Translations under genes and position numbers: made by a program
From: Muribaculaceae bacterium
GTDB taxonomy: Bacteria; Bacteroidota; Bacteroidia; Bacteroidales; Muribaculaceae
DNA length: 39,973 nt
Assembly (NCBI GenBank): GCA_017935045.1
Contig: JAGBIJ010000054.1
Location: 1-39,973, forward strand
Direction: 5' to 3'
Notes under the pieces: generated by a model
The model's input: only the letters and a program-made list of their open reading frames with translations
Databases searched by the model: none
What the model was told of the DNA's origin: nothing
In this document: piece by piece, positions 1-6,268 of the stretch
How positions within the stretch are numbered: the first letter of the stretch is position 1
How the letters are laid out: the number at the start of each line of letters is the position of its first letter

Positions 1-142
1 AGCTACTGCTCACTAAACCTCGCCAAGATACAATCATCAACATTTATTCGCTCTTATAATTTTGTTATTCAATAAATTATGTAACTCGACATATCATTCC
101 TAATATTTAAGACAATTCATCTTCATTCATATTTATTGTTCC
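1..142. other. AT-rich non-coding left edge
   Basis: No gene is visible. A -7-like TAATTTTG sits at 57-64 without a convincing -33 element at the right distance. It could start a short transcript running rightwards into the repeat and terminator at 143-213. The short open frames here lack family resemblance. Confidence 0.4.
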
Positions 143-275
143 CTCCGGGGTCACAATGGTATCCGGCAAAACGGAGAAGAACGCTGAAATCGCTTGATTT
201 TCAGCGTTCTTTCTTTTTGTCTTCATGGCTGAATGATGCATTCCGTGCGGTACTGCCGTGTGCAATTCGTGGACA
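143..275. repeat. left flanking repeat (copy A) of the accessory island
   Basis: Bases 143-168 are identical to 3747-3772. They are followed by the same hairpin-terminator (180-213 versus 3783-3817) and, at the same general distance, by the motif CGTGTGCAATTCGTGGACA (257-275; compare 3862-3880). The two copies form an imperfect direct repeat of about 135 bp on either side of the ATPase, HEPN and HicAB genes. This resembles the ends of a cassette or integrative element, but no recombinase is encoded here. Confidence 0.65.
180..213 (+). terminator. intrinsic terminator in repeat copy A
   Basis: AACGCTGAAA (180-189) pairs with TTTCAGCGTT (199-208), followed by a T-rich tail. The same hairpin recurs in copy B. 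Confidence 0.6.
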
Positions 276-637
276 TCGCTTTCCGGGTGCTTTTTGCACA
301 CGATTGATGGGATGCCCTCGTTAAACGCTAATAATCAGAGCTTTCAACCGATAGGAAACGTACAAAAGTGGGGTTATGAACCTAAAACGGGGCAAAAACA
401 GCGATTGGAGAGCCAATCGTTTCAATGATATTCATAACGTAACACCGCATTTTGTTTTGACGAAAATCTGGTAAATTGGAACGATGAAACCAAAATGCGT
501 GCTGATTATGCTATGCACAAGCATAGCGTGCAGTCACGTTTTTCCTACTAAGGCAATACCAGAGCCGTCACTGAGAAGCGTGAATTACACGCTTTTTTTA
601 TCAATACCTTATGTTTTACTGAACAAAATAAGTTCTA
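276..637. other. non-coding stretch with several hairpins
   Basis: No convincing gene. Perfect small inverted repeats are present: CGATTGG/CCAATCG (402-419), GCATTTTG/CAAAATGC (about 452-498), and GCTATGC/GCATAGC (510-527). It ends in an intrinsic terminator at 577-600. It may be the decayed end of a mobile element or the body of an untranslated transcript. Confidence 0.35.
577..600 (+). terminator. intrinsic terminator upstream of the ATPase
   Basis: AGCGTG, a 5-base loop, CACGCT, then seven T residues. It would stop transcription entering from the left before the ATPase promoter. Confidence 0.6.
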
Positions 638-683
638 TTTTATTCAATACAACGGTTTGATTGAATAAAAATCGCTATATTTG
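638..683 (+). promoter_or_regulatory. operator-promoter of the DUF4143 ATPase
   Basis: A perfect 11-bp inverted repeat, TTTTATTCAAT (638-648) and ATTGAATAAAA (660-670) with an 11-base spacer, lies just upstream of the -7 box TATATTTG (676-683). The -33 element is poor (TTTG 656-659, 16 bases away), so a protein bound to the inverted repeat may control initiation. A copy with the same spacing occurs on the minus strand at 17639-17684. Confidence 0.65.
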
Positions 684-702
684 CAGTCTAAAACAGACTG
701 TA

Positions 703-1941
703 ATGAAAACAACTATATTCAATCAGCGGGCCGAGCGAGACGAATTGTTGTCGCGCCCTTATCAGAAACGGCGTACTAAGTATGACGCTGATGAACTTTT
801 GCAGAATCCGCTTATAAAACTTATAACCGGGCCTCGTCGCGTAGGTAAATCCGTTTTTGCCCTGTTGATGTTGCAAGGCAAGAATTTTGCCTACCTCAAT
901 TTTGACGATAATCAGTTGCTTGAAAAATGGGACGAGGATTTGGCAATGTCAGCACTTGATGATGTCTATCCCGATTATGACTTCATGCTGCTCGATGAAA
1001 TTCAGAATCTGCCGGATTGGGATTTGTGGGTAAGCAAACTATACCGTCGTGGAAAGAATCTGATAATAACCGGCAGTAATGCCAAGATGTTGAGCAGTGA
1101 AATGGCGACTGTCCTGACGGGGCGTTATCTCCAGATTGAGATGTTGCCTTTCAGCCTTGACGAAACCATGAGCTGGAAAAACATCAGCCCTGACCGAAAG
1201 GAACAGGCGGCACAGGCAATAATGCTGGCTGATGACTATATGCGAAACGGCGGGTATCCTGAAACAATCGCTGCCCGTAGCATAACCAAAAGCTATCTTT
1301 CCACACTGTTTGATTCAATCCTGCTGAAAGATGTCGCACAACGTCATAAAGTAAGGAACACTACTGACCTATACAACCTTGCCACATATCTGTTGTCAAA
1401 CTTCTGTAATCCGATTTCTGCCAATGAACTTGCCGGAGAACTGGGTTTGTCAAGTGTGGCAACTACAAAAAAATTCTGCGACTATCTCAACGAGCCTTAC
1501 CTGTTCTTCTATTTGCCACGCTTCAACAACAAGTTGAAACTGATGAACAAGGCTCCGAAAAAGGTATATGTCGTTGACAACGGTTTTGTGCAAAGCACAG
1601 CGTTCAATCTAAGCGAAAACCTCGGCAGACTGCTGGAAAACCAAGTCTTTGTGGAACTCCTAAGACGTGGCTACATCCCCGGTAAAACGCTGTTCTATTA
1701 CCGCACCCGCAACGATAAAGAGATAGATTTTGTCACCCGTAAAGGCGCAAAAGTAGAGCAACTGATACAGGTCTGCTACGATATGACCTCCGAGAAAACC
1801 CGCAAACGAGAACTCGACGCCCTTACCGAAGCTGCTGAAGAACTTCATTGCGACAATCTCCTTATCATCACTAACTCGCAAGAAGAAAAAATCGAGTGGA
1901 AACGAACCGCAATATTGGTGACATCAATACAAAAATTCTGA
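703..1941 (+). CDS. AAA_14/DUF4143 family ATPase
   Basis: A 412-residue P-loop ATPase of the type common in Bacteroidales accessory DNA. Walker A is GPRRVGKS (about residues 43-50) and Walker B is in DFMLLDEI (about 93-100). A sensor-like ITGSNAKML follows, and the second half matches DUF4143, with a late EIDFV motif reminiscent of restriction-fold nucleases. The physiological role of this family is not settled. An upstream TTG (661) would add 14 residues, but it lies before the -7 box TATATTTG (676-683), so the ATG at 703 is the start, with a leader of roughly 15 bases. The HEPN gene follows after 23 bases and may be co-transcribed. Family call is firm; function is not. Confidence 0.9.
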   Translation: MKTTIFNQRAERDELLSRPYQKRRTKYDADELLQNPLIKLITGPRRVGKSVFALLMLQGKNFAYLNFDDNQLLEKWDEDLAMSALDDVYPDYDFMLLDEIQNLPDWDLWVSKLYRRGKNLIITGSNAKMLSSEMATVLTGRYLQIEMLPFSLDETMSWKNISPDRKEQAAQAIMLADDYMRNGGYPETIAARSITKSYLSTLFDSILLKDVAQRHKVRNTTDLYNLATYLLSNFCNPISANELAGELGLSSVATTKKFCDYLNEPYLFFYLPRFNNKLKLMNKAPKKVYVVDNGFVQSTAFNLSENLGRLLENQVFVELLRRGYIPGKTLFYYRTRNDKEIDFVTRKGAKVEQLIQVCYDMTSEKTRKRELDALTEAAEELHCDNLLIITNSQEEKIEWKRTAILVTSIQKF

Positions 1942-1964
1942 TAATAAACTAATTGAAATAGAAT

Positions 1965-2810
1965 ATGAATAGTTTTACATACGAGATTCCAAATGAAGAT
2001 GGATTCTTTAATGCAGTTATGACAGTGTTATGCAACGATCCTAAATATAGTAATAACAATTACTATAATATCTTACGAGATGGATATTGCGAGATTTCTG
2101 CGACAAGTAGTTACTCTCAAAGAAGATGGGATGCTATGTACACTATTGTGAATTTCTATATTCCTCAAGATAAATTTGGTGCAATTGCTTCCAATATTGC
2201 TGATATTAAAGAAGTTTTACTAAAAGTGAGCAGGTCAGTAATGCCTCCAAATGCAGGCTATGATGTTATGGAGATTAACATTTCTCCTAATTTAAACACC
2301 ACAAGAAATAACATTTTAGACGAAGTTATTATTGCTACAGACCAAGCTAAATTGGATATTCTTTCGGACGAAATTAAGCAGAAAGGTAAAGAAATGTCCG
2401 AATTATATGTGACGCTTTATTGTATCGAAAATTCATTGCGTAACTTTATTGATACTACCCTCTCAAACGCACTTGGAGAAAATTATTTTCCTCTTATAGC
2501 TGTTCCATCAGATATTGCAAAAGGAATTAGTACAAGGAAAAAAGAAGAGAAACAAAATAAGTGGTTACCACTTCGTGGTGATAAAGACATTTATTACTTA
2601 GATTTTATAGATTTGGCCAAGTTAATTCAAAATAACTGGGAGTATTTTAAAACGTATTTCCCAAGTCAAGGGTGGATATCAACAAAGATAGATGAGCTTT
2701 ACAAGGTTCGATGCTTAATTGCACATAATAGCTATGCTGGAGACGATGAGAAAGATATGGTTGCCCTGTATTACAAACAGATTGTTAAACAAATAGGAAA
2801 CCATAAATAG
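1965..2810 (+). CDS. HEPN-domain protein, possible RNase (Swt1-like C-terminus)
   Basis: 281 residues, noticeably more AT-rich than the genes around it, which suggests recent acquisition. The C-terminal half is helical and carries RCLIAH (R-x4-H), the metal-independent RNase motif of HEPN domains, in the setting ELYKVRCLIAHNS. The segment starting SELYVTLYCIENSLRNFI resembles the Swt1-type HEPN fold. The N-terminal 130 residues match nothing I recognise. HEPN proteins are usually toxins or defence effectors acting on RNA. Its position just downstream of the ATPase and upstream of HicAB, inside repeat-bounded DNA, fits that. Activity is inferred from the motif only. Confidence 0.55.
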   Translation: MNSFTYEIPNEDGFFNAVMTVLCNDPKYSNNNYYNILRDGYCEISATSSYSQRRWDAMYTIVNFYIPQDKFGAIASNIADIKEVLLKVSRSVMPPNAGYDVMEINISPNLNTTRNNILDEVIIATDQAKLDILSDEIKQKGKEMSELYVTLYCIENSLRNFIDTTLSNALGENYFPLIAVPSDIAKGISTRKKEEKQNKWLPLRGDKDIYYLDFIDLAKLIQNNWEYFKTYFPSQGWISTKIDELYKVRCLIAHNSYAGDDEKDMVALYYKQIVKQIGNHK

Positions 2811-2974
2811 GAATAATTACGGCTTAACAAACTTTTATGGTTTAAATCCTTGCTGCCGACTGCCACATCGTTATTCCGAAAAACGCTCTTTCCCCGCACC
2901 ATCACGAACTTTCCTATTCACAGATTTGGTTTGCAACTAAAATTTAGTTACTTTTGTGCCAAGATTAGAACAGC
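2811..2974. promoter_or_regulatory. hicA promoter region
   Basis: TTTG (2925-2928), a 20-base spacer and TACTTTTG (2949-2956) form a Bacteroidota promoter, giving a leader of about 14 bases before the hicA ATG. The toxin-antitoxin pair can therefore be transcribed independently of the HEPN gene. Confidence 0.6.
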
Positions 2975-3229
2975 ATGGGAACAAAAGAAAAACTGATAGC
3001 CCGGTTCTCGACTCTCCCCAATGACTTCACATGGGAGGAAATGAGGCGTCTGCTTGTTGCTTTGGGATACATTCCGGGCAACAAGGGTAAAACATCCGGC
3101 TCTCGCGTGATATTCAAGGGAGAAGGCAAGAAGCCGATAATGCTTCACAAACCTCATCCGGGAAATATCATCAAGGGGTACGTTATGAAACAGGTTTATG
3201 ATTATCTTAAAAACGAAGGACTGATATGA
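2975..3229 (+). CDS. hicA: HicA family toxin (mRNA interferase)
   Basis: 84 residues, normal length for HicA, a small dsRBD-fold RNase that cleaves mRNA when not bound by HicB. The typical pattern is visible: an N-terminal helix, TWEEMRRLLVALGY, then GKTSGSRVIFKG, and the conserved IMLHKPHPG with its histidines before the closing helix IIKGYVMKQVYDYLKNEG. The position usually occupied by the catalytic histidine in the strand after the glycine loop reads SGSR, so the LHKPH histidines should be examined. The stop overlaps the hicB start by 4 bases (ATGA), a normal toxin-first arrangement. Confidence 0.85.
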   Translation: MGTKEKLIARFSTLPNDFTWEEMRRLLVALGYIPGNKGKTSGSRVIFKGEGKKPIMLHKPHPGNIIKGYVMKQVYDYLKNEGLI

Positions 3230-3564
3230 ATACATTAAAATATAAAGATTTTATCGGCTCGGTGGCATTCAGCGAGGCTGACGGCGTATTCTTCGGTAAA
3301 ATCGAGGGTATTGACGGACTTGTGAACTTTGAAGGAGAAAGCGTAGCCGAGCTTACCAACGCCTTTCACGAGGCGGTGGATGATTACCTTGCCTATTGCG
3401 CCGAGGAAGGCATCGAACCCCACAAAAGCTATTCCGGCTCACTTAACGTGCGCCTTACTCCTGACATACACAGCCGCGTGGCATATCTTGCCAAACAAGC
3501 AGGAGTATCAATAAATTCTTTCATTCGTACTGCCGTCGAAAAACAAATTGCAGCCATGCTCTGA
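3226..3564 (+). CDS. hicB: HicB family antitoxin
   Basis: 112 residues. The N-terminal half has the degraded RNase-H-like HicB fold (YKDFIGSVAFSEADGVFFGKIEGIDGLVNFEG, then AFHEAVDDYLAYC). The C-terminal segment LNVRLTPDIHSRVAYLAKQAGVSINSFIRTAVEKQI is a ribbon-helix-helix DNA-binding domain. Such proteins neutralise HicA and repress their own operon. It overlaps hicA by 4 bases. A good promoter for a separate transcript begins 29 bases downstream at 3593. Confidence 0.88.
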   Translation: MNTLKYKDFIGSVAFSEADGVFFGKIEGIDGLVNFEGESVAELTNAFHEAVDDYLAYCAEEGIEPHKSYSGSLNVRLTPDIHSRVAYLAKQAGVSINSFIRTAVEKQIAAML

Positions 3565-3592
3565 TGATATGATATTTTAACGCCATACATGC

Positions 3593-3622
3593 TTGGTAAT
3601 CGGCGAAAAAGCATTAACTTTG
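3593..3622 (+). promoter_or_regulatory. strong promoter with no following gene
   Basis: TTG (3593-3595), a 19-base spacer and TAACTTTG (3615-3622) match the Bacteroidota consensus closely. No coding region follows on the plus strand. The next clear signal is the terminator at 3783-3817. Confidence 0.6.
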
Positions 3623-3627
3623 CAATA

Positions 3628-3817
3628 CCCCGATGGAATAATGGGGAAGAACATTGAAATAGTGTCGTGTGCAATTCGTGAACAACGGATATGACGGCAT
3701 TGCAATATTCTGAAAACCACTTAGTTACAACGATATATCCCGACTCCTCCGGGGTCACAATGGTATCCGGCAGGATAATGCGAAACGCTGAAATCACTTG
3801 ATTTTCAGCGTTTTTTT
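3628..3817 (+). ncRNA. candidate small RNA, about 190 nt, in repeat copy B
   Basis: Bounded by the promoter at 3593-3622 and an intrinsic terminator. The 5' end can form a CCCC/GGGG hairpin (about 3628-3645). The RNA contains the attachment-like motif at 3666-3684 and the module at 3747-3772, which is identical to 143-168. No open frame on this strand looks real. On the minus strand both copies encode a matching peptide pattern (LPDTIVTPE), so a short coding tail is an alternative reading. Confidence 0.4.
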
Positions 3818-3880
3818 ATTTGTGTCAGGATGGATGAAAAGTGCATGGAGTGCAGGTGTGCCGTGTGCAAATCGTGAACA
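3665..3880. repeat. right flanking repeat (copy B) with two attachment-like motifs
   Basis: CGTGTGCAATTCGTGAACA occurs at 3666-3684, and a one-base variant with A for T occurs at 3862-3880. The motif at 257-275 in copy A is the third. Between the two lies the shared module (3747-3772) and the hairpin terminator. A perfect inverted repeat, AATCGTGGACA and TGTCCACGATT (about 3886-3911), follows immediately. Confidence 0.6.
3783..3817 (+). terminator. intrinsic terminator in repeat copy B
   Basis: AAACGCTGAAA (3783-3793) pairs with TTTCAGCGTTT (3803-3813) and runs into a T tract. It is homologous to the terminator at 180-213. Confidence 0.65.
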
Positions 3881-4199
3881 CTCCGAATCGTGGACATTTT
3901 TGTCCACGATTGGATTCTGGAGGCTGTATAGAGTTGTATATCAGGCTAAAGCTCTTCCATCAGGTCTTAAAAAGCCGGTATCCTGAACCTAAAAATACGT
4001 CTCTGAGGCGCGAAGTTTCCGCAAATCAGCGATAATTTAATGTTACCACCTATCGGAAAAACATAAGCTCCAAGCTGAACATCCATTCTATTGCCGGGCT
4101 TGTGATTTATGCAATACTGCATCATTATATCGAAATTGACAGCGCCATACTGCCCGACTGAACGGGCAGCAGACACTTGGCAAGCTCTCATGCGAGGTG
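3881..4199. other. non-coding stretch after the island
   Basis: No gene recognised. It contains the inverted repeat at about 3886-3911 and a hairpin CTGCCCG/CGGGCAG at 4150-4169 just beyond the end of the acetyltransferase gene on the minus strand. The hairpin could help end that transcript but lacks a clear T tract. Confidence 0.4.
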
Positions 4200-4796
4200 T
4201 CATTTACCGGAGCGGAACCGCCGGAGTACTCTGGCCGGCACGCCGCCTATCAGGCAGTCGCCGGTAAATGACTTAGTGACAACCGCGCCGGCGGCCACTG
4301 TCACATTGTCGCCGAGTGTCACACCCCCTAAGATTATAGCGCCGGCGCCTATCCAGCAGTTGTCGCCTATCACTACGGGTCTGGCGTATGTCTTGCAGAA
4401 ATAGGATGCCGGATTACTGTCGAAGTCAGGATTGCGTCTATCCTCCCAGTCGGCCGGGTGGGACGCAGTGTTGATCTGCACACCCGGCGCGATCAGCACA
4501 TTGCTGCCGATACGGATTGTATTGCAGTCAATAAGCGTACAGCGGTAATTGACCGACACATTGTTACCCAGATAGATATTGCAACCGAAACCGCAGATGA
4601 AGCCATCGCCCACCGAGCAGTTGGAACCGACATGTCCGAACAGCTCCTGAAGCATGGCATAGCGTTGCGCCCGCTGGTCGTAGGGTAGCGTATTGTACCG
4701 CAGCATCCAACGCGTGGCGACAGCTTTCATCTCCAGGAAAACGCTGTCATGGCAATCATACGCCTCCCCCGCCATACATTTCTCAAGTTCATTCAT
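4200..4796 (-). CDS. maltose/galactoside O-acetyltransferase-like enzyme
   Basis: A left-handed beta-helix acetyltransferase that would move an acetyl group from acetyl-CoA to a sugar; the true acceptor is unknown. From MNELEKCMAGEAYDCHD the 198 residues match the Maa/LacA/NodL layout. An N-terminal Mac domain (MAGEAYDC, then RYNTLPYDQRAQRYAMLQELFG) is followed by hexapeptide repeats (VGDGFICGFGCNIYLGNN to VVIGDNCWIGAGAIILGG). INTASHPADWEDR contains the likely catalytic histidine. The open frame continues 20 codons upstream to an ATG at 4856, but that segment is the tail of a different acetyltransferase, so I start at 4796. Confidence 0.85.
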   Translation of the reverse strand: MNELEKCMAGEAYDCHDSVFLEMKAVATRWMLRYNTLPYDQRAQRYAMLQELFGHVGSNCSVGDGFICGFGCNIYLGNNVSVNYRCTLIDCNTIRIGSNVLIAPGVQINTASHPADWEDRRNPDFDSNPASYFCKTYARPVVIGDNCWIGAGAIILGGVTLGDNVTVAAGAVVTKSFTGDCLIGGVPARVLRRFRSGK

Positions 4797-4889
4797 AACG
4801 TTGTATTTATCTATTTTCCTGATGACGCGTGCCGGATTTCCGGCCACTATGGCCATCGGCGGGATTTGGCTTTGTATGCAGCCTCTTAG
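4797..4889 (-). pseudogene. C-terminal remnant of a second acetyltransferase, in frame with the next gene
   Basis: Translating upstream of 4796 gives IPPMAIVAGNPARVIRKI, the standard C-terminus of hexapeptide acetyltransferases, yet here it stands at an N-terminus. There is no stop between it and the Maa-like gene. It is cut off on its own N-terminal side at the 5-bp duplication flanking the mobile element. It is most simply the end of a gene lost by deletion or insertion. Confidence 0.7.
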
Positions 4890-5207
4890 AGGGTGTTTAA
4901 TAATAAACGTTAATTATGGGCGACGGATTTTCAGCTAGAATCCGGTTAAGTCGAAAGAGCATAGCGGGCTATGCGACTGAGACGCGGCCGGATTATGGCG
5001 AAAATCCGGCGGACATTAACTATTGTTTTTATATTCAACCCTCATTTATTAATCTTCTTAACTGTATCAAAGTTACTTCCGGACTCGGAATCGCAAATGT
5101 ATTTCGCCCTTTGTCTCAGTCGCATAGCCCGCTATGCTCCCTCGCCTGCATGGCAAAATCCAAGTTGCGATTCCGACCCATAATTAACTTTTATTATTAA
5201 ACACCCT
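4890..5207. mobile_element. MITE-like element, 318 bp, with terminal inverted repeats and target duplication
   Basis: The ends are inverted repeats: AGGGTGTTTAATAATAAA starts at 4890 and its complement ends at 5207. Similarity extends about 31 bases with one mismatch. CTTAG flanks both sides (4885-4889 and 5208-5212), a 5-bp target duplication. No transposase is encoded. Inside each terminal repeat sits a long hairpin with the same core, GCATAGCGGGCTATGC (4959-4974; 5122-5137 in reverse orientation), next to GACTGAGAC. The hairpin stems differ in sequence but each pairs with itself: CGGATTTTC 4924-4932 with 5000-5008, and TCGGAATCGCAA 5085-5096 with 5165-5176. The right end supplies part of the araC-type gene's stop codon. 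Confidence 0.75.
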
Positions 5208-5208
5208 C

Positions 5209-6108
5209 TTAGTTTACCGATAGTGTTCTGTATTCTTTTGGCGTGCGGCCCGTACGCCGCTTGAAGAAGCGGACGAAATGCTGAGGATAGTCAAATCCGA
5301 GCATGTCGCCCACCTGCGTTACCGAGAGGGTAAGGTCGTTGAGAAGTTCCCTTGCCGCGTTTACGAGCCGGTCGGCTATCATATCCTTAGCAGTCGTACC
5401 CGTGCTTGTCTTGACAAGCTCGCCGAAATAGCCGGCCGACAGATTCAGTTGGTCAGCGAAATACGCTACTGTCGGCAGACCCCGCTCTCTGATTTCTTTG
5501 GCAAAATACCGGTCCATCAGAGCGTGAAACCGCTCCATGACTGTACTGTTGATGACCTCGCGGGAGTAAAACTGACGTTCGTAAAAACGCAGACAATAAT
5601 CCAGAAAGACCTCCAGATGCGAGATTATGATAGAGCGTGAGTGACGGTCTATGCTGTGGCTTATCTCCCTTTCTATCAGTGAAAGCACTGCTTCAAGCAA
5701 CTCTACTTCTTCAGCCGACAGATGCAGCGCCTCGTTGCTGCTGTAAGAAAAATAGCCGTATGCCGACATTCTGCCCCCTAAAGCCGTGCGAACCAGAAAA
5801 TCCGGATGAAAGGCAAGCACAGTCCAGCGGGGCTGAATCTGACCCTCCGCCACTACAGTAGTTACCTTTTGGCCCGGAGCAAACGCAGTTACCGACATTT
5901 CATCGAAATCATACTTTGTAAGTCCATAATTCAGCTCGCAGCCCTTGGTCTCCTTAATATAGATGGCGTATACTCCGAACTCGTATGTAGTGGCGCCGGG
6001 TTCCGGCTCGCCGGCATAATGCCCTACGGAAATCATCGGGTGCAGATGTCTGAATCCGTAATAGTCATTGAACCGGTGTATCGTATCGAATTTAACTTCA
6101 TTTGCCAT
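5209..6108 (-). CDS. AraC family transcriptional regulator
   Basis: 299 residues. An N-terminal sensing domain of about 190 residues (MANEVKFDTIHRFNDYYG, then HPMISVGHY) precedes a C-terminal double helix-turn-helix: TVAYFADQLNLSAGYFGELVKTSTG, then LSVTQVGDMLGFDYPQHFVRFFKRRTGRTPKEYR. It is divergent from the exported flavodoxin gene, a common arrangement for a regulator and its target. The -7 box TAATTTTG (6113-6120, minus strand) is only 4 bases before the ATG, so the mRNA is probably leaderless or nearly so. The stop codon lies in the CTTAG duplication of the mobile element. Confidence 0.92.
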   Translation of the reverse strand: MANEVKFDTIHRFNDYYGFRHLHPMISVGHYAGEPEPGATTYEFGVYAIYIKETKGCELNYGLTKYDFDEMSVTAFAPGQKVTTVVAEGQIQPRWTVLAFHPDFLVRTALGGRMSAYGYFSYSSNEALHLSAEEVELLEAVLSLIEREISHSIDRHSRSIIISHLEVFLDYCLRFYERQFYSREVINSTVMERFHALMDRYFAKEIRERGLPTVAYFADQLNLSAGYFGELVKTSTGTTAKDMIADRLVNAARELLNDLTLSVTQVGDMLGFDYPQHFVRFFKRRTGRTPKEYRTLSVN

Positions 6109-6112
6109 GCTG

Positions 6113-6268
6113 CAAAATTACAAATAATCCGCGGTTATGAAAAAATCTGCCTTCAGGATTATATGACCTATTTTTCGGATTTAAGAGACTGTTGCCTTCG
6201 GCCTGAAAAAATGGTCATAACACCCCGAAACAGGGTTTATCTACACATAAAAATCCATACTAATTTTG
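6113..6268. promoter_or_regulatory. divergent promoter region, araC-type regulator and flavodoxin
   Basis: The minus-strand -7 box TAATTTTG at 6113-6120 serves the regulator. The plus-strand -7 box TAATTTTG at 6261-6268 serves the flavodoxin, with only a weak TTTA at 6236-6239 as -33, consistent with a need for an activator. The 140 bases between could hold the regulator's binding sites; I could not identify a specific one. Confidence 0.5.

Follow-up and report, generated by a model that had tools for sequence, protein, structure and literature searches.

A contig of 39,973 nt from the Muribaculaceae bacterium assembly GCA_017935045.1 (JAGBIJ010000054.1; this whole stretch is called the window) carries near its start a unit of 3.6 kb which is probably an integrase-less derivative of an integrative element targeting tRNA-Lys, similar to a cis-mobilizable element (CIME). 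The unit extends from one attachment site (att) to the other, at about positions 141 to 3758, and is bounded by two copies of the 3′ end of tRNA-Lys(CTT). Its right end is conserved in other genomes of the family, its left end is homologous to the left ends of integrase-bearing elements, it harbors no integrase gene, and cargo and right end are shared across genera. Furthermore, we infer that repeated words at its ends act as integrase arm sites, that the interior of an ancestral element was deleted, and that the unit may be mobile in trans. The assembly comprises 62 contigs and is 89.9% complete. Window position 1 is position 1 of contig C7 and thus a contig edge, leaving only 140 bp to the left of the unit.

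A preliminary description of this DNA had reported two blocks in direct orientation (143-275 and 3747-3880), which were confirmed by a repeat comparison of the window. The blocks share an identical stretch of 27 bp (142-168 and 3746-3772), 89% identity over 38 bp (180-217 and 3784-3821), and 72% over 69 bp (207-275 and 3812-3880). A 19-bp motif is present in three copies (257, 3666, and 3862), the one at 3666, inside the right end, also being confirmed; 0.04 copies are expected at up to three mismatches, and none of 100 shuffled sequences reached three. The word TCGTGRACA occurs five times in the window, counting both strands, and every occurrence lies within the ends of the unit or of an element. 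The blocks had been taken for a cassette-specific repeat. According to alignments and ARAGORN, they are rather tRNA-Lys 3′ ends: in each of them, the tRNA-Lys(CTT) 3′ end is followed by a terminator and then by words resembling integrase arm sites (CGTGNNCA).

The tRNA origin of the blocks emerged only with longer queries. The exact 26-mer of the repeat had no match in genome_contigs and viral_contigs, from which near relatives are possibly absent, and with up to three mismatches it was found among 149 family genomes in its own genome only. The view that the repeat exists only here was abandoned when a longer DNA query revealed the tRNA gene. With positions 1-4200 of the window, 59 of 111 genomes of the genus showed some match, many of these limited to about 141-219, and when 26 places were aligned (two from the window, 24 chosen by hand among relatives), the block resolved into a tRNA gene's 3′ end and its terminator. 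Among 20 loci of relatives, ARAGORN predicted tRNA-Lys(CTT) in ten, tRNA-Lys(TTT) and tRNA-Arg(TCT) in one each, and no gene in eight. Relatives of the cargo adjoin tRNA-Lys(CTT) (locus L068), tRNA-Lys(TTT) (L060), or tRNA-Arg(TCT) (L065 and L077). The contigs of several relatives break off near the tRNA site. A tRNA-Lys(CTT) gene was not found in the unit's own assembly, in which the contig with the gene flanking tRNA-Lys(CTT) in relatives stops 284 bp past that gene and does not reach the tRNA. In L121, the terminator hairpins behind two tRNA-Lys 3′ ends (3587-3640 and 6168-6220) have the same stem and an inverted loop (TTTC versus GAAA).

Of the cassette proposed earlier, the discrete unit stands, and its boundaries have to be moved: they had been drawn from the first motif to the inner motif (3.4 kb), whereas the unit runs from att to att, with the inner motif (3666-3684) inside its right end. 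Homology with L137, L059, L067, and L074 ends at 3760, just beyond the tRNA end and with both tail types. With L060, L061, L063, L064, L066, L128, and L139 it ends between 3736 and 3747, at the terminus of the right end, and with L062 it continues to 3821. A gene cassette with a dedicated recombinase crossing over at the 19-bp motif would fit the three motif copies bounding 3.4 kb. Such a cassette is nevertheless highly improbable, because elements remain homologous past the motif as far as the tRNA end, where or close to which the homology stops, because the motif is located about 100 bp inside the left boundary and about 60 bp inside the right one, and because each integrase group has its own words but the tRNA end is constant. 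An integron gene cassette was likewise dropped, the unit being bounded by tRNA 3′ ends instead. The unit may have tandem neighbours: an element end is matched by 48 bp next to the left edge, where the contig breaks off at position 1, and a second left end follows the unit (Table 1). The matching 48 bp (window 103-150, the last 10 bp being the tRNA end) are 87.5% identical to G310a 58600-58647 (E 9e-11), which is flanked by a gene for a 449-aa tyrosine-integrase-like protein and by the next tRNA-Lys att.

Table 1. Features of the unit and its immediate neighbours in the window.
Feature	Position	Strand	Evidence
Right-terminal end of upstream neighbour element X, cut by contig edge	1..140	+	match to G310a
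att A, 3′ end of tRNA-Lys(CTT), CCCTCCGGGGTCAC	141..154	+	0 mismatches; end of the intact gene in relatives
Left end of unit, with terminator hairpin (~180-210) and arm-like words	155..390	+	~250 bp alignment with integrase-bearing left ends
Pair of arm-like words in the left end, CGTGTGCAA/TTCGTGGACA	257..275	+	motif search, left-end alignment
Structured non-coding RNA candidate	392..600	+	nhmmer E 1e-52 (window among 14 aligned sequences)
AAA_14 + DUF4143 ATPase	703..1941	+	Pfam E 9e-31 and 2e-22; PADLOC candidate PDC-S01 E 6e-105
HEPN_Swt1-like protein	1965..2810	+	Pfam E 4e-8; PADLOC candidate PDC-M34B E 7e-37
HicA toxin	2975..3229	+	Pfam PF07927 E 4e-8
HicB antitoxin	3226..3564	+	Pfam PF05534 E 4e-19
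Conserved right end RE (model R1)	3645..3742	+	11/111 genus genomes, 39/397 family genomes
Arm-like pair within RE (third 19-bp motif)	3666..3684	+	motif search
att B, second tRNA-Lys(CTT) 3′ end copy, TCCTCCGGGGTCAC	3745..3758	+	homology with L137, L059, L067, L074 ends at 3760
Left-end remnant of next element Z	3759..4010	+	alignment with integrase-bearing left ends
Terminator of element Z	~3784-3815	+	
Arm-like words of element Z	3862-3880, 3888-3896	+	
Inverted arm-like word of element Z	near 3901		

Between the blocks, Pfam confirmed the four stress- or defence-like genes noticed before, which encode an AAA_14/DUF4143 ATPase, a HEPN_Swt1-like protein, HicA, and HicB; they would serve as defence or addiction genes. 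The open reading frame (ORF) of the ATPase is open from 661, with an ATG at 703. The HEPN_Swt1-like protein contains RCLIAH, read off the sequence, which we take to be its R-x4-H motif. The lack of an own recombinase was also borne out: among the four genes between 141 and 3758, Pfam found no integrase, no relaxase, and no conjugation or mobilization genes, and an integrase profile built from five seeds had no match among the ORFs of the unit with at least 60 aa. An autonomous integrative mobilizable element (IME) or integrative and conjugative element (ICE) was therefore rejected, as was a phage satellite (PICI, P4-like), since Pfam assigned none of the four genes to phage packaging or phage regulation. 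In the same genome, a second stretch resembling the end of hicB is located at G000:C3:61608-61730 (76% identity).

The cargo and the right end are shared with another genus. Window positions 620-3760 are 91.7% identical to L137 over 3142 bp with conserved gene order, whereas tyrS of the same two genomes, the single core gene compared, is 72.8% identical over 1147 bp. That blocks and cargo might simply be fixed in the same place in relatives is partly excluded. In L137 the same cargo does lie between two ends of tRNA-Lys(CTT), and no empty site was found, but G310 has the same genes in a different order at tRNA-Lys(TTT). The G310 interval of 57 kb contains a similar left end, an integrase, HicAB, the ATPase, HEPN, and a right end, all between two tRNA-Lys(TTT) 3′ ends, and is preceded by an intact tRNA-Lys(TTT) gene and another interval of 16 kb. 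The G310 copy of the ATPase gene (L128:12102-13339) is split into two ORFs of 120 and 284 aa.

The left end connects the unit to integrase-bearing elements. About 250 bp behind each of the two att copies, A and B, can be aligned with the left ends of such elements, with the arm-like words at corresponding positions. The words in G310b (GTGTGCAATTCGTGAACA) and L074 (ATGTGCAATTCGTGAACA) are near those of the window; GTGAGT is found in G310a, L039, and L071. More generally, the words between tRNA terminator and integrase vary by integrase group, including GTGAGT, GTGAAT, GGGTACA, and CGTGGGCA (L039, L046, L054, and L125; L199 at another tRNA end), as if arm-like word and integrase changed together. 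The integrase of the 57-kb interval has the domains Arm-DNA-bind_5, SAM_5, and Phage_integrase. A protein search with it yielded matches at 1e-100 in 37 of 397 family genomes. Of the thirty integrase loci returned, 26 were usable because the integrase could be read and its upstream DNA was present, in two cases with less than the 620 bp examined; excluded were L210 (79% identity), L211 (72%, no upstream DNA), and, for lack of an integrase segment under the rule used, L220 and L223. TCGTGRACA is located upstream of all five integrases at least 75% identical to the query, with four to five copies each and the query locus included, and upstream of none of the 21 others. This distribution predicts the integrase clade which could act as helper of the unit. 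Within the clade, the proteins of L196 and L198 are full-length (411 aa), that of L195 has an internal stop, that of L197 reaches the contig end, and the query is truncated; intact tRNA-Lys(TTT) genes adjoin three of the five. In L225, a relaxase-like ORF (by inspection, without profile search) lies beside a clade-type integrase. Six Phage_integrase matches are present in the unit's own genome, none of them inside the window. Three of these six, located at contig edges, were considered as helpers; a comparison with the G310 proteins showed no match to the integrase of its neighbour element, and they were dropped.

The stretch 3613-3740, at the right end of the unit, is found by itself in relatives, and a model of this region (R1; 99 positions from ten sequences, based on sequence without structure) detected it in 11 of 111 genomes of the genus and, with strict filters and some matches partial or weak, in 39 of 397 family genomes from 10 of 30 genera. 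The 19-bp motif, which this right end carries, is thus not restricted to this genome. Forty-four copies in 43 stretches were inspected, leaving out five weak matches (G058, G090, G261, G338, and G343). In 36 of the 44, a tRNA-Lys 3′ end with up to two mismatches follows within 22 nt (CTT in 17, TTT in 19), compared with 17 of 20000 random 28-mers from the same loci. The eight copies lacking it are L062, L063, one of two in L064, L129, L136, L143, L147, and L149, of which L062 and L136 look like the gain or loss of a single base, whereas L147 and L149 are incomplete copies. Up to two mismatches being allowed, 41 of 44 copies have the arm-like pair; it is absent in L074, L147, and L148, where the match begins beyond or inside the pair. 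No match to the right end was found in plasmids, nor to its exact pattern in viral_contigs. Its carriers also include a strain labelled Barnesiella sp. WM24 and one labelled Bacteroides muris NM69_E16B, in the latter of which FRG and AbiJ_NTD4 genes precede it. Genes picked by hand near right ends elsewhere, which do not amount to a census, were assigned by Pfam to Fic (L121), FRG and AbiJ_NTD4 (L180), GmrSD with an SMC-like ATPase (L132), SIR2 (L122), SocA/Panacea (L061), HD-CE and HATPase (L144), and AAA_14/DUF4143 (L131), and past the right end to Fic (L059) and to AAA_21 and RloB (L066). Pfam gave no family for the second gene of L121 and the protein of L134. In L145 (4588-14268, flipped), a SusC/SusD-like cluster resembling polysaccharide utilisation loci precedes the right end (by inspection), so that cargo may extend beyond defence genes.

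Six segments without integrase, as judged with the five-seed profile, were recognised in two genera: the window unit (3.6 kb), L121 (2.6 kb), L137 (3.3 kb), L060 (4.5 kb), L063 (2.5 kb), and L064 (about 1 kb). Four of the six have tRNA-Lys ends on both sides with up to two mismatches, and in L063 and L064 the right-hand end is more degenerate. Their left junctions differ. In L137 the terminator is followed by a stretch resembling an insertion sequence (IS) end (by inspection), L121 has the tRNA terminator alone, and in the window the arm-like words lead into a candidate structured RNA. For this RNA, 36 pairs are predicted, 16 of them with double changes that keep the pair among 14 sequences (without shuffle control), and no Rfam match was found at 392-600 or at the L119 and L062 copies. 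In 12 of 15 distinct copies, the RNA adjoins the 3′ side of a gene for a sigma-54 activator-like protein like that of L128; the gene is missing before the RNA in the window, L076, and one L128 copy. These counts derive from 23 rows, 18 of them with the gene, before overlapping loci and one antisense partial row were removed. A response-regulator domain is below the Pfam cut-off in the L128 protein and above it in the L131 protein. Further RNA copies include L128:10996-11212 and L142:7793-8008. An RNA next to the left end without its usual regulator suggests a deletion, which we consider the best explanation of this junction.

The existence of several such segments, each of about 1 to 4.5 kb, raises the question of whether they are naturally minimal satellites, a short integrase-less lineage selected to ride helper integrases instead of a deletion product. 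Their occurrence in two genera and a right end that is conserved while cargo is exchanged would agree with this, but the left junctions vary from unit to unit, a shared integrase-less left end was not found, and both the RNA without regulator and the IS-end-like scar of L137 resemble deletions. We therefore regard a satellite lineage as unlikely. More serious is the alternative of an immobile relic, to which we give somewhat less than an even chance; it shares the origin from a tRNA-Lys-targeting element with our preferred explanation and differs from it in function, the ends being vestigial and present mobility lost. In favor of a relic, the two blocks are no longer alike outside their core (72-89% identity), and the two findings on arm pairs and the own assembly given below point the same way. 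On the other side, the window unit retains arm-like words at both ends, and the 91.7% identity across genera indicates fairly recent movement of cargo and right end, perhaps within a larger element. For the window unit itself, the relic state and the movable state appear about equally likely.

Several observations weigh against a CIME-like unit that is still movable. No excision, circle, empty site, or transfer was seen. Of the earlier suggestion that a tyrosine recombinase moves the unit in trans, the existence elsewhere in the family of a clade with matching arm words is supported, while neither circular junction nor transfer was shown. The arm-like words are putative arm sites by position and repetition only, and CGTGNNCA is looser than TCGTGRACA, occurring one to seven times also upstream of eight of the 21 other integrases, and so is not specific. 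All five clade integrases are located at tRNA-Lys(TTT), whereas the window has the CTT type, and among the loci of the 397-genome search none with tRNA-Lys(CTT) had an integrase of this clade. No clade integrase was detected at E 1e-100 in the 89.9% complete own assembly. The integrases of G310b and L074 are truncated, and the G310b interval contains four more integrase-like ORFs and repeated transposase-like ORFs (the latter by inspection), so that it may be composite. In G310a, the right end shares an att interval with a GTGAGT-arm integrase; arms and integrase are thus not always matched. In the other five integrase-less units, the left arm pair was not detected with up to three mismatches (two for L137), as expected of relics. 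Finally, the right flank of L121 matched 11 of 49 genomes of its genus, and the fetched L161 and L162 showed neither tRNA nor empty site.

Taken together, the CIME-like origin could be pictured as follows. The ancestral element would have had an integrase at its left end and a regulator, the structured RNA, and defence cargo at its right end. It would have integrated by recombination in the 3′ end of the tRNA gene, supplying a replacement 3′ end and terminator and thereby keeping the tRNA intact. A deletion of the interior, from integrase through regulator, would then have joined the left end and the RNA at a junction near 385-392. Since the unit has CGTGNNCA words left at each of its ends, a TCGTGRACA-clade integrase present in the same cell could still excise and insert the unit in trans; alternatively, the unit could be carried in cis by a neighbour element. 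An excised circle would join the right end to the left end through CTCCGGGGTCAC.

The arrangement had not been recognised as a named element. It does have a name, as CIMEs and their accretion in tandem arrays are treated in PMC5704250 (citing Pavlovic 2004 and Bellanger 2011). Like the CIMEs described there, the unit keeps, by sequence, attL and attR without integration and transfer genes at the 3′ end of a target gene and is probably located beside other elements of the same site. A descent from an ICE or IME through loss of modules, as for CIMEs, may be reflected in the same kind of ends and genes in the 57-kb integrase-bearing, possibly composite G310 interval and in the RNA lacking its regulator at the junction. 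The unit differs in belonging to an island family of gut Bacteroidales with a strongly conserved right end and defence-type cargo and in a helper predicted from arm words, and its mobility is putative. Similar islands exist at ssrA in Dehalococcoides, where, according to PMC3146451, tandem islands are bounded by copies of the RNA gene 3′ end and 15 of them lack an integration module, which the authors considered might be cis-mobilizable elements. These share with the present case the RNA-gene bounds and the integrase-less islands, but use a serine recombinase at ssrA, whereas here a tyrosine integrase with arm-binding domain is associated with tRNA-Lys. Bacteroides also harbors integrative mobilizable elements such as NBU1 that are helped by CTnDOT (PMC5704250). 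The predicted helper resembles NBU1-type elements in its domains (Arm-DNA-bind_5, SAM_5, and Phage_integrase) and its location at a tRNA 3′ end, while the unit described here encodes neither an integrase nor a relaxase and has its own tRNA target and arm words. The kind of element is thus known; the tRNA-Lys island family and its likely helper enzyme are new to us, and in the literature searched no title or abstract was recognised as this family, which is no proof of its absence.

Outside the unit, positions 4885-5212 of the window resemble a miniature inverted-repeat transposable element, with inverted repeats of 36 bp (94% complementary) and an inner pair of 35 bp (91%). The stretch is located between an acetyltransferase-like and an AraC-like gene (names by inspection).

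The puzzling repeat has become a testable case of a possible spread of defence genes among gut Bacteroidales in units that have no recombinase of their own. A family-wide guild of integrase-less defence cassettes, with one conserved right end, helper integrases at tRNA-Lys, the arm word as address for an integrase clade, and possibly the RNA behind the regulator as part of the control, is a doubtful extension of this. The match of arm word and integrase clade suggests that sequence could be used to predict which helper an orphan island has, while its conserved right end provides a handle for locating more such islands, including those of the Barnesiella and Bacteroides muris strains.

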